Source of the DNA: Lysobacterales bacterium
Lineage (GTDB): Bacteria; Pseudomonadota; Gammaproteobacteria; Steroidobacterales; Steroidobacteraceae
Assembly (NCBI GenBank): GCA_003819815.1
Contig: RPQJ01000020.1
Span: 1 to 41,038 of the forward strand
Length of the DNA stretch: 41,038 nucleotides
Direction of reading: 5' to 3'
Shown here: one piece after another, positions 2,255 to 6,878 of the stretch
Layout of the letters: each line of letters opens with the position of its first letter
Position numbering within the stretch: position 1 is the stretch's first letter
The notes under the pieces: model-generated
What the model was told of the DNA's origin: nothing
Seen by the model: the letters and a program-made list of their open reading frames with translations, nothing else
Databases searched by the model: none
Made by a program: the position numbers and the translations under genes

Positions 2255-3232
2255 ATGGGATACGCCACGGGCCGAACGATGCCGAACCTGCTGTGCGCGG
2301 GACTCGCAATGCTGGCTGGCATCGCACTCGCCGAAGGCGACGTGAACGTGCCGCGGCCGGTCGAAGAACTCGAGCGGGAGCTCGCCACCGACCCGTTCCG
2401 CATCGAGCGAGCCGAAATCAGCCGGCCGAAGGCCCAGGGCGACATCACGCTGAAGGCCGACGTCTCGTTCGACGGGCGCCCCGCCTACCGCGTGAAGCTG
2501 CGGCGTGCGGAACCGGGCGCCGACTCGTTCAACAACCGGCCCCGCTACGACCTCGCCGCGTACGAACTGCAGAAGCTGTTCCTGTCGCCGGCCGAGTACG
2601 TCGTCCCGGCGACGGCGTTGCGCATGATGCCGCTCGCGGAGCTGGCCCCGTACGCCCCCGCGGCAGCGCCGACCTTCCGTGGCTCCGACGAGGTGCTGGT
2701 GGTCCTGCAGTACTGGCTGCAGGAGGTGAAGGTGATCGCCGACGTCTACGACCCGGCGAAGTTCGAGGCGGACCCCGTGTATGCGCGCCACATCGGGCAG
2801 CTGAACGTGCTCACGTGGCTGATCGAGCACGGCGACTCGAATACCGGCAACTTCCTGATCTCCCGGGCGCCCGCCGGCCAGCGCGTGTACTCCATCGACA
2901 ACGGCGTGGCCTTCGCGCTCAACGACAGCGATCGTGGCCAGCTGTGGAAGGACCTGCGCGTCGATCGGCTGCCGGCAGACGTCGTCGAGCGCCTGCGCGC
3001 AGTGACGCGCGAGGAACTCGAGCGGCGCCTGTCGGCCGTCGCCGAGTGGCAGCTGCGCGACGGCCGATGGATGGCGGTGCCTCCGGGCCAGAGCCTGTCG
3101 GCGATGCGCGGCGTGCGCGAGAAGAAGGGCACCGTGCAGCTCGGGCTCACGCGGGCCGAGATCGACGGCGTGGCGAAGCAGCTCGAGAAGCTCCTGGCAC
3201 GGGTGGACGATGGCAAGATCAAGACCTACTGA
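2255..3232 (+). CDS. Predicted secreted protein with atypical protein-kinase-like fold (Fam20C/HipA/PI3-4K-like motifs), function unknown
   Basis: ORF 2183..3232; start chosen at ATG 2255 with GGAGGG upstream and a signal peptide. Motifs: YRVKLRR (Lys strand), RYDLAAYELQKLFLSPAEYVVPATALR, LIEHGDSNTGNFLIS (catalytic D..N), VYSIDNGVAF (metal-binding D). Confidence 0.7.
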   Translation: MGYATGRTMPNLLCAGLAMLAGIALAEGDVNVPRPVEELERELATDPFRIERAEISRPKAQGDITLKADVSFDGRPAYRVKLRRAEPGADSFNNRPRYDLAAYELQKLFLSPAEYVVPATALRMMPLAELAPYAPAAAPTFRGSDEVLVVLQYWLQEVKVIADVYDPAKFEADPVYARHIGQLNVLTWLIEHGDSNTGNFLISRAPAGQRVYSIDNGVAFALNDSDRGQLWKDLRVDRLPADVVERLRAVTREELERRLSAVAEWQLRDGRWMAVPPGQSLSAMRGVREKKGTVQLGLTRAEIDGVAKQLEKLLARVDDGKIKTY

Positions 3233-5213
3233 CGGATTCGCAGGCATCCTTGCGCGGGTTCCTCGAGTCGCGTGCGCGGCGGCCGTTCTCGCGGCCGGCT
3301 TTCTCGCCTCCAGCCACGCGGCGTCGGAGACGACGTCCCCTGCCCCGCAGGAGGCCCGCGGCGCCTCGGACGTGCACCGCAGCGTCGAGCGAGTCGTCGC
3401 GTTCGCGGACGTGCACGGAGCGCACGAGGAACTCGTCGCGCTGCTGCAGTCCGTCGGCGTCGTCGACGCGGAGTTGCGATGGAGCGCCGGCACGACCCAC
3501 GTCGTGAGCCTCGGCGACCTGCTCGACCGCGGCGCGGATTCGCGTCGCGTCATGGACCTGCTCATGCGCCTGCAGCGCGAGTCGCGGGAGGCCGGCGGCG
3601 CGTTGCACGTCGTGCTCGGCAATCACGAGGCGATGAACGTGCTCGGCGATCTCCGTTACGTCGCGGACGGGGAATTTGCCGCCTACGCCGCAGACGAGGA
3701 TCCGGCCGAGCGTGCCGCGCGCCGCGCCGAGTTCCTCGGCCGCAATCCGGGCGCCACGACCGCGGATTTCGAGAAGGCGTTTCCGCCCGGCTACTTCGGC
3801 CACCGCAGGCTGCTCGGGCCCGACGGCCCGTATGGACGGTGGCTGTTGTCGCTCCCGGCCGCGGTCGTCGCGGGCGACGCGGCATTCATGCACGGCGGGC
3901 CTTCCGTGCTGCTGCACGGCCGTAGCATCGACCGGCTGAACCGCGACTACGCGGCGGCGCTCGCGGAGTACCTCTCGGCGCTCGACACGCTCGAGCAGGC
4001 GGGCCTGGTCCGGTTCGAGGACGACTTCGGCAAGCGGGCGGACGCGGCCGTCGCGAGGCTGGCCACGGTCGCGGACGGTGCCGAGCGCTCGCGGCTCACG
4101 GCCGCAGTCGAGCGGTTGCGGGTCGCCGACGATCACCCGCTGCTCGGACCCGCCGGCCCCAACTGGTACCGGGGCGCGGCGCTCTGCAACGAGTGCGCCG
4201 AGGCCGACGTGCTGCGGCCCTGGCTCTCGCAGGTCGGGGTCCAGCGCCTGGTCGTAGGCCACACCGTGGCGCGAAATAACCTCGTCGCGTCGCGGTTCGA
4301 CGGCGCGCTCGTGAAGCTCGATGCCGGCATGAACCGCGCCGTCTACAAGGGACGGCCGGCCGCGCTGCTGCTCGAGCGCGGCGCGCCGCCGCGGGTCGCA
4401 TATGCCCTGCCCACGGTGGCGCCCGCCCCGGTCCCTTCGGAAGCGGTGCACGTCAGTTCCGAGTCGCTGGACGAAGCGACGGTCGCCGACGTGCTCGCGC
4501 GCGGAACGATCGCAGTCACGGCAGCGTGCGCGCCCGGCATCTCGACGGTGAACGTGACTCACGAGGGTCGTACGGTGACGGCGGTGTTCGAAGCCGCGCC
4601 GCGTGCGGTCGTCGAGCGCGAGCTCGCGGCCTGGCGCCTCGATCGAGTGCTCGGACTCGGTCTCGTGCCGGCCACCGTTGCGCGCAGCCACGATGGACGC
4701 GAGGGCGTGCTGCAGGGACGGCCCGAGCAGTGGGCGAGCGAGCGCGACCGCCAGCATGCGCGCAATGGCGTGCGCGCGGGACTCTCCTGCCAGTCCGTCA
4801 CGGTGCCGGAACGCGCCGAACCGGCCCGCCGCCCCCTCGAGGCGCAGGGCCGCCCGCCGCGGCTGCCGGGAGGTGGTCCGTGCGACGCCAAGGCGCAGTA
4901 CCAGCTCGCCTACGCGTTCGACGCGCTCATCGGCAACGACCGACGCACGCCGGACCAGTACGTCTACGACGTCGAGAGCTCGGCGTTGCTGCTCACGGGC
5001 CACGGCGCGGCTTTCGATACGACAGTCCGCCTTCCCGAGGCGCTGGAGGCGGTGCTTGGCGCCACCGGGGCCGAGATGCAGTCGCGGCTGCGCCGCCTCG
5101 ACGCGACGAACGTCGCGGACGCGCTCGGCGCCGCGGGCGGCAAGCGCGAGGCGGAGGCGCTGCTCGAGCGCCGGGATCGCATCCTCGAGCTCGCCCGCAA
5201 GGGCGGCCGCTGA
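3210..5213 (+). CDS. Secreted Shewanella-like (PPP-family) metallophosphoesterase with C-terminal degenerate kinase-like domain
   Basis: Signal peptide, then FADVHGAHEE, SLGDLLDRGADS, VLGNHEAMNVLGDLRYV, MHGGPS, VVGHTV = PPP/Shelph motifs; C-terminus VERELAAWRLDRVLGLGLVPATVAR...FDALIGNDRRTPDQYVYDVESSALLLTGHGAAF resembles an atypical kinase lobe. Confidence 0.85.
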   Translation: MARSRPTDGFAGILARVPRVACAAAVLAAGFLASSHAASETTSPAPQEARGASDVHRSVERVVAFADVHGAHEELVALLQSVGVVDAELRWSAGTTHVVSLGDLLDRGADSRRVMDLLMRLQRESREAGGALHVVLGNHEAMNVLGDLRYVADGEFAAYAADEDPAERAARRAEFLGRNPGATTADFEKAFPPGYFGHRRLLGPDGPYGRWLLSLPAAVVAGDAAFMHGGPSVLLHGRSIDRLNRDYAAALAEYLSALDTLEQAGLVRFEDDFGKRADAAVARLATVADGAERSRLTAAVERLRVADDHPLLGPAGPNWYRGAALCNECAEADVLRPWLSQVGVQRLVVGHTVARNNLVASRFDGALVKLDAGMNRAVYKGRPAALLLERGAPPRVAYALPTVAPAPVPSEAVHVSSESLDEATVADVLARGTIAVTAACAPGISTVNVTHEGRTVTAVFEAAPRAVVERELAAWRLDRVLGLGLVPATVARSHDGREGVLQGRPEQWASERDRQHARNGVRAGLSCQSVTVPERAEPARRPLEAQGRPPRLPGGGPCDAKAQYQLAYAFDALIGNDRRTPDQYVYDVESSALLLTGHGAAFDTTVRLPEALEAVLGATGAEMQSRLRRLDATNVADALGAAGGKREAEALLERRDRILELARKGGR

Positions 5214-5216
5214 CGC

Positions 5217-6878
5217 TCAGACGGCGCGGACGCCGCCGCGCAGGACGAAGCTGCTCTCGGCCTGAAGGCCGTCGACGTCGCTTGCGATGACGGTGACGCG
5301 CAGTTCCTCGAATGCGCCCGCCGGCGGCCGTCCGGTGAAGCGGCGGGTCTGGGCGTCGAAGGCGAGCCACGCGGGCAGCGCCCGACCATCGGTGAGCCGC
5401 GCGGCCAGGGTGAGCACGTCGCCCGGGTCCGAGTCGCGGAACGCGTCGTCCGCCACGACGTGCTCGAAAGGACGGCCGGGCTGGTATTCGACGTCGGGAA
5501 TCGGCCGGCCCGCCTCGGGCGCGACGTTGATCACGTTCTCCTGCGCCTTGCGCGTGAACTCGCGGCCGATCGCTACCGCGAGGCCGATCCAGCAGAGCGC
5601 GAGCGCGAGGTTGAGCAGCGCGAACTGGGGCGGCGCCCAGCCGAAGTGATTCAGGCCGAGGTAGACGACACCGGCCTGGATCAGGTCGCCGAAGCGCCAG
5701 AAGAACGTGTCGATCGCCGTCTTGCCCTCGTACTTGGAGTCGCGGTCGACCGGCAGGAAGAGCGCGTGGCGCGTCGTGTTCATCAGCGAGTAGTCGACGC
5801 TGTTCTCCGCGATCTTCACGAGGCGGATCAGAGTGAAGATCGGGACGAATCCCCCGAGCAGCGGCGAGACGGCCAGCAGCCCGTAGCCGAGCGCCACGAT
5901 CGCGGGGTGAATCAGCAGCGCCCCGCGCAGGCCGAGCCCGGGATGACGATAGATGCGCGAGACGAGGAACAGCTGGATCGAGAGCCCGATGATCGTGACC
6001 CAGAACTGGAAGTCGCCGTAGAACGCCGTGATGAGCGCGCCGGCGTCGAGACCGCCGCCGCTCGCGGCCGCGCGCTCCTGCGCGTCGCGCTGCACGAAGT
6101 CCGCGAGGATGAACTCGCCGGTCGAGTTGATCCAGTTCAGGAGCACGACGAGCAGCGCGATCAGGAGCAGGTAGCGGTCCCGCAGCACCAGGCCGATGCC
6201 GCCCATGAGGCGCGGCAGCGGCCGGCCGTGCTCGGCGACGATCGCGAGGGACCCTGCAGGCACCGCGCGCCGCTCGGGACCAGCGAGTGCGAGCGTCGCG
6301 GCCAGTACGGCGGTCGCGAGCACCATGAGGCCCACCGGCGTCAGCGAGGCCACCGCGAGCTGCGCGCACTTGGCGCCCGCGAGCGCGCCCAGGTTCGCGC
6401 CGACCATGATCACCGGGAACAGGCGCTGCCCGCTCTTCAGGTTGAACGTGTCCGCCGCGAACGCCCAGAACTGCGCGATCATCATCACGCCGAAGATGCT
6501 GACCCAGACGAAGAACGCGAACGCGATCGGCACGCCGCCCCAGGCGAGCGCCGCGAAGAGCGCCATGTTGAGCGCGAAGAAGACCGTCACCGCCTGGAGC
6601 AGTTTCGCGCCGTCGAGCCGCCGTCGCACGACGCCGTACAAGGGCACCAGGAACATCAGCACGAGCGCGATGACGGCGACCGCGTAGGCACGCACCTCGG
6701 CCGAGAAGCGCGTGAGCATGAAGGCCTCGCGCAGCGCCTTCACGATCATGTAGGAAAAGAGCAGCAGGAACCCGTGCGCGAGGAAGATCTGCACGCAGCG
6801 CCCTTCCCCGGGGCGGACGCGCGTGAAGAGCGTGAGGGTCCGCTCGAAGCGGGTCAGGCCTGCGTGGTCGGTCAGCAC
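5217..6878 (-). CDS. NTT/TLC-like (COG3202-type) MFS membrane transporter with C-terminal He_PIG/cadherin-like domain
   Basis: Multiple TMs with VWVSIFGVMMIAQFWAFAADTFNLKSGQRLFPVIMVGANLGALAG as in ATP/ADP-translocase-like MFS proteins; C-term FEHVVADDAFRDSDPGDVLTLAARLTDGRALPAWLAFDAQTRRFTGRPP resembles Ig/cadherin-like He_PIG. Confidence 0.75.
   Translation of the reverse strand: MLTDHAGLTRFERTLTLFTRVRPGEGRCVQIFLAHGFLLLFSYMIVKALREAFMLTRFSAEVRAYAVAVIALVLMFLVPLYGVVRRRLDGAKLLQAVTVFFALNMALFAALAWGGVPIAFAFFVWVSIFGVMMIAQFWAFAADTFNLKSGQRLFPVIMVGANLGALAGAKCAQLAVASLTPVGLMVLATAVLAATLALAGPERRAVPAGSLAIVAEHGRPLPRLMGGIGLVLRDRYLLLIALLVVLLNWINSTGEFILADFVQRDAQERAAASGGGLDAGALITAFYGDFQFWVTIIGLSIQLFLVSRIYRHPGLGLRGALLIHPAIVALGYGLLAVSPLLGGFVPIFTLIRLVKIAENSVDYSLMNTTRHALFLPVDRDSKYEGKTAIDTFFWRFGDLIQAGVVYLGLNHFGWAPPQFALLNLALALCWIGLAVAIGREFTRKAQENVINVAPEAGRPIPDVEYQPGRPFEHVVADDAFRDSDPGDVLTLAARLTDGRALPAWLAFDAQTRRFTGRPPAGAFEELRVTVIASDVDGLQAESSFVLRGGVRAV

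Follow-up and report, generated by a model that had tools for sequence, protein, structure and literature searches.

A predicted bacterial FAM20-like kinase coupled to a phosphatase-pseudokinase fusion: a probable module for reversible phosphorylation outside the cytoplasm

Two overlapping genes found in a 41 038 nt stretch of Lysobacterales DNA (contig RPQJ01000020.1; the whole stretch is called the window here) probably make up an extracytoplasmic module for reversible phosphorylation that has at its core a bacterial kinase related to the FAM20 secretory kinases of animals. The first gene, here designated K (2255..3232, + strand), is predicted to encode a separate, exported FAM20-like kinase of 325 aa in which the catalytic residues are intact. 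The second, ORF2 (3210..5213, + strand), is predicted to encode an exported fusion of 667 aa, made up of a phosphatase followed by a degenerate kinase-like domain. Each of these parts is within or near a known family. As far as the open PMC papers searched show, what is new is the presence of a FAM20-like kinase in a putatively exported bacterial phosphatase fusion, the all-or-none decay of that kinase and its apparent replacement by a separate one.

The original prediction described two signal-peptide-bearing ORFs overlapping by 23 nt, and both were recovered, with the overlap at 3210..3232 (+ strand). The overlap is considered real because ORF2 includes no other in-frame ATG, GTG or TTG ahead of its hydrophobic segment. 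Similarly tight spacing was seen in close relatives, where the K and phosphatase genes either share an ATGA overlap (L030, L031) or are separated by gaps of approximately 10–18 nt (L024, L025, L029, L033). The two genes are tightly spaced neighbours in genera g9 and g11 as well as in the window's own, and a TLC gene faces them. In genus g15, it is K that the TLC gene faces, with the phosphatase (the ORF2 counterpart) approximately 7 kb away; the intervening sequence in this locus (L034:2011-8760) contains a gene for a PEP-CTERM protein and large unidentified ORFs. The proposed coupling of a putatively secreted atypical kinase to a putatively secreted Shelph-type phosphatase is retained, and the pairing is conserved among relatives.

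Using a simple hydrophobic-segment rule, signal-peptide-like N-termini were detected in K (2255..2332, + strand), in ORF2 and in 16 of the 18 scorable K homologues, compared with 1.5% of internal control segments. The same rule identified such an N-terminus in 43 of 62 fused phosphatases. An extracytoplasmic location of K and ORF2 is predicted from these N-termini. The residues originally put forward as the kinase marks of K, namely the Lys, the catalytic Asp/Asn and the metal Asp, are all conserved among the 18 homologues. They comprise K81, the candidate ATP-binding Lys in YRVKLRR (2495..2497, + strand), D194 (candidate catalytic Asp) and N199 in the catalytic loop HGDSNTGN (2828..2851, + strand), and D215, the candidate metal Asp and DFG equivalent, in IDNGVAF (2894..2914, + strand). 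In the alignment of the 18 homologues (A1), K81, H192, D194, N196, N199, D215 and F220 are invariant, with the Lys shifted in the alignment in the divergent K of L145. The candidate Glu proposed earlier (in AYEL) was not conserved and had to be abandoned; the acidic residue in RYD/RYE is a better candidate.

The PPP/Shelph phosphatase domain of ORF2 spans residues ~58–392 (3381..4385, + strand) and its catalytic residues are intact. It matched PF00149 (2e-11) and the Shewanella phosphatases 2zbm, 1v73 and 2z72 (E values of 6e-27 to 4e-26), and both the motifs with the metal ligands and the Shewanella match that define Shelph/PPP membership were present. Across about 70 relatives, D67, H69, D103, N138, H139, H228 and H351 show essentially no variation, in agreement with the PPP/Shelph motifs originally recognized in this ORF. 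ORF2 has the PPP core and all metal-ligand motifs in common with the Shelph phosphatases (PDB 1v73, 2z72, 2zbm) but, unlike the Shewanella proteins, it has a C-terminal kinase or pseudokinase domain, which falls outside the Shewanella match.

This second kinase-like domain, which makes up the last ~260 residues of ORF2 and had been overlooked, was found because the TIGR03843 model, which weakly matches the catalytic region of K, also touches residues 467–660 of ORF2. The region from residue ~410 to 667 (4437..5210, + strand) appears to be a degenerate FAM20-like kinase domain, that is, a pseudokinase, based on the weak TIGR03843 match, on alignment with intact relatives and on a Foldseek search with a weak model (AlphaFold, three-row alignment, pLDDT 56), which returned mostly kinase folds, the best with an E value of 0.025 and none individually significant. 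The catalytic loop reads NDRRTPDQ (4935..4958, + strand) in place of the NxDRTxxN of intact relatives, and the metal-binding motif reads TGHGAAF (4995..5015, + strand) in place of IDHSRAF. ORF2 is a phosphatase, as had been predicted, but one fused to a kinase half that appears to be dead in the window and is intact in other genera.

A profile of the ORF2 C-terminal domain found matches in 22 of the 120 genomes of the window's family and in 51 of 147 genomes of the order, representing 26 of 56 genera. Nearly all were in frames of at least 580 aa that also carry the phosphatase motifs. Surveys of the class and phylum outside the order recovered hardly anything, and weak matches only. When 75 fused domains were aligned, all four kinase residues (Lys, catalytic Asp, Asn, metal Asp) were seen in 20, none of them in 33 and one or two in the remaining 22, not one of which retains both the Lys and the catalytic Asp. 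Judged by these residues, the fused kinase half is all-or-none, either intact or dead, and in the window it is dead. Set against this, the phosphatase metal ligands are nearly invariant and the phosphatase is therefore under constraint everywhere. The dead domain also conserves non-catalytic positions over deep divergence (e.g. E74, L80–R82 and V89–P90 in alignment A2), which argues against plain decay. The original picture of a coupled pair of separate proteins is correct for the window, but the single-chain fusion is commoner in the order, and it is the separate kinase that is restricted. In one locus (L131:4863-10218), two intact phosphatase-kinase fusions are repeated, each faced by its own TLC gene. 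Another Gammaproteobacterium (G165) has an open frame (L080:2-718) in which similar kinase-like motifs occur and whose visible part contains no phosphatase domain.

To which kinase family do these domains belong? A profile built from 16 intact fused domains matched FAM20A (8e-9), FAM20B (1.4e-6), FAM20C (5e-6) and C. elegans Fam20 (5e-4) in the PDB, and PI4K type II came next with an insignificant score. Single intact proteins matched TIGR03843 with E values of 1e-4 to 9e-14, reaching at most 51 bits against a curated cut-off of 172, so that by sequence the intact fused domains are homologous to TIGR03843 (the SCO1664 family) and not members of it; the kinase-like domain is of the same type, here fused to a phosphatase. 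The intact fused proteins also gave weak catalytic-loop matches to HipA_2, PI3_PI4_kinase and Fam20C. As the score for Pfam Fam20C (PF06702) was at most 15.9 bits, under the gathering score of 26.8, we classed the domains as FAM20-like and not as FAM20 members.

K alone had no Pfam match and no meaningful PDB match, FAM20 included, and a Foldseek search with its structure model (AlphaFold, three-row alignment, mean pLDDT 45) returned nothing useful. K is linked to FAM20 because its profile aligns with that of the intact fused domains (hhalign probability 96.7, E 4.3e-10) and the motifs coincide: HGDSNTGN falls on the DRTxxN and IDNGVAF on the LIDHSRAF of the fused domains. Adding K to the profile improved the FAM20 matches to 5e-12 to 3e-5. 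The homology is visible only with profiles, and BLASTP of K against the C-terminal domain of the window's ORF2 found nothing. In the multiple alignment A9, the Lys strand of K is out of place, and the agreement in the C-lobe is the part relied on. The FAM20 catalytic Lys, Asp and metal Asp are seen in K and in 20 fused domains and are absent from the fused domain in the window, and the FAM20/PI4K-like motifs originally noted in K are supported.

K was present in 18 of the 120 genomes of the window's family. It was not found outside the order in the class and phylum surveys, nor in a class-wide sample of about 270 other Gammaproteobacteria, and scans of viral contigs yielded no K and only generic phosphatases. 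In K-bearing genomes, the fused domain is dead wherever the fused gene was found, and the searches made found no K in genomes with an intact fused domain. Three g9 genomes that lack K have a fused domain with intact kinase motifs. In another instance, G444 (L145) has K and a dead fused kinase, while two genomes of the same genus, G400 and G413 (L139, L143), lack K and carry fusions that are intact. In a tree of the phosphatase domains (73 rows), which is a quick tree with many weak forks, the state with a dead domain plus K appears at three places nested among intact ones, and well-supported branches force at least two. A simple account of this either-or pattern would be a duplication after which kinase function was lost reciprocally, or K may have been transferred between lineages. 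In 38 loci the dead fused domain occurs without any K, and hence the dead domain does not need K.

The gene found tail-to-tail with ORF2 (5217..6878, − strand) encodes a TLC/NTT-type ATP/ADP carrier with a C-terminal He_PIG Ig-like domain. It matched PF03219 (3e-10; 39.9 bits, gathering score 21), PF05345 (3e-11) and the solved ADP,ATP carrier 9j3n (3.6e-12), and its adjacency is retained in relatives. Counting of membrane helices by hydropathy was ambiguous. The TLC-type carriers of these loci match the solved ADP,ATP carriers in sequence and differ from the known TLC/NTT carriers in that there is often an extra C-terminal Ig-like domain. Where an intact kinase is present, be it the fused domain or K, a TLC carrier was found tail-to-tail with ORF2 or K at 24 of 36 loci; at the 38 loci that lack such a kinase there was none. 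In this count, L074 is from genome G081, whose K sits on another contig, and contig ends hide some flanks. The raw Fisher p value of 3e-9 for this association, computed before L074 was recounted, cannot be read as significance because the tree includes only about three independent changes of kinase state, and the test was rejected as proof of a link. TLC genes are also frequent in the window's family (58 of 120 genomes), making a functional link between carrier and kinase suggestive only.

Of the intact loci that have no such carrier, nine have a same-strand gene for an OmpA-like protein at most 171 nt downstream. Examples are L107:3907-5229, L108:2033-3217 and their relatives, where the gene after an intact fusion that lacks a TLC neighbour encodes an OmpA-like outer-membrane protein made up of a beta-barrel, TSP_3 repeats and an OmpA domain, which is a candidate substrate or partner. 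Upstream of K at 386-2179, the window contains a gene for a PMT/ArnT-like glycosyltransferase. The two genes stay next to each other throughout the window's genus, but neither g11 nor g15 retains this arrangement. As it is conserved only in close relatives, this gene was set aside as the clue to the substrate that it had originally been taken for; the neighbour associated with the kinase is instead the downstream gene for the ATP/ADP carrier family (or the OmpA-like protein).

In its commonest form in the order, the module is a single, putatively exported protein in which a Shelph/PPP phosphatase precedes a FAM20-like kinase domain. The fused kinase of the window's lineage has lost its catalytic residues, and the activity would be supplied by the separate, translationally coupled and putatively exported K. 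K would transfer phosphate from ATP to an envelope molecule and the ORF2 phosphatase would take it off the same substrate again. By analogy with Fam20A, which activates Fam20C (PMC7948968, PMC5865150), the pseudokinase domain of ORF2 may bind or tether K and regulate it. The space outside the inner membrane of bacteria has been described as having no available ATP (PMC2229476), a lack that the adjacent TLC-type carrier may resolve by supplying it. Counting for a phosphorylation module are the homology of K and the fused domain, the FAM20 matches, the all-or-none residues, the occurrence of K only with dead domains, the tight spacing, the signal-like N-termini and the adjacency of the carrier. 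Counting against it are the absence of a PDB FAM20 match to K alone, a structure model of K of too low quality to reveal its fold, a carrier association amounting to about three changes, the nine OmpA-like loci, the 38 dead-domain loci that lack K and the ~7 kb that separate K from the ORF2 counterpart in g15. A much bolder proposal, and on present evidence an unlikely one, is that the Gammaproteobacteria of this order have a dedicated cycle of extracytoplasmic phosphorylation that depends on ATP, with FAM20-like kinase and phosphatase in one polypeptide in some genera and split in others, the old domain kept as a regulatory pseudokinase and an ATP/ADP carrier of its own feeding the cycle.

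It is quite possible, if short of probable, that the substrate of K and of the intact fused domains is a small envelope molecule, such as a glycan or a lipid, and not a protein, with the phosphatase catalysing the reverse step. FAM20B phosphorylates xylose and PI4K phosphorylates a lipid; FAM20B is among the best matches here, with PI4K type II next, and in the window's genus an envelope glycosyltransferase gene lies upstream. FAM20B has also been termed the ancestral FAM20 type (PMC7948968). However, the best match is FAM20A and FAM20C is nearly equal, so the sequence does not discriminate between a glycan or lipid and a protein substrate, and the glycosyltransferase is conserved in close relatives only.

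The loci that keep a dead domain without K, and the distance between K and ORF2 in g15, would also suit a pair of independent enzymes encoded in one operon, with the dead domain a leftover or a substrate- or wall-binding module that makes no contact with K. This is doubtful given that K is found only where the fused kinase is dead and that the dead domain conserves E74, L80–R82 and V89–P90. More improbable still is a nucleotide-scavenging locus, in which a secreted phosphoesterase would act on extracellular (di)nucleotides, the TLC carrier would import the products and the kinase-fold proteins would have a side role or another chemistry such as AMP transfer; PKL proteins may have chemistries other than phosphorylation. 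Weak matches of ApaH/PrpE-type models to the phosphatase, and the movement of nucleotides by TLC family carriers such as the solved ADP,ATP carriers, are in its favour, but the phosphatase has its best structural matches among Shewanella protein phosphatases, and dead-kinase loci without K have no carrier, indicating that the presence of the carrier follows that of the kinase and not that of the phosphatase.

The FAM20 kinases (the pseudokinase Fam20A, the glycan kinase Fam20B and the protein kinase Fam20C) resemble the proteins of the phosphorylation module proposed here in their exported kinase fold, predicted in our case, with motifs in register, are the best PDB matches and likewise pair an active kinase with a dead paralogue. 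The proteins described here differ from them in being bacterial and fused or coupled to a phosphatase, and the FAM20 disulfides and dimer interface are not evident. FAM20 has been described as an animal family (PMC7948968), and a 2022 survey called the FAM20 cluster Metazoa-specific (PMC9758233). If the bolder proposal of a dedicated cycle holds, FAM20-type extracytoplasmic phosphorylation, including the pairing of kinase and pseudokinase, would exist in bacteria. A putatively exported FAM20-like kinase with its own phosphatase, often accompanied by a carrier-family gene, makes periplasmic ATP-driven phosphorylation directly testable, and the recurrent combination of a dead fused domain and a live K offers a natural experiment on the origin of pseudokinases.

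AceK, the isocitrate dehydrogenase kinase/phosphatase, has both activities in one protein, as proposed for the intact fusions. It is cytoplasmic and has one active site, unlike the intact fusions, which have two separate domains and predicted export signals. The AceK kinase domain model (PF06315) did not match K or ORF2 and was matched only by an unrelated ORF at 6-671 of the window. This ORF is the C-terminal part of an AceK (3e-92), cut by the contig start and unrelated to K by the models used.
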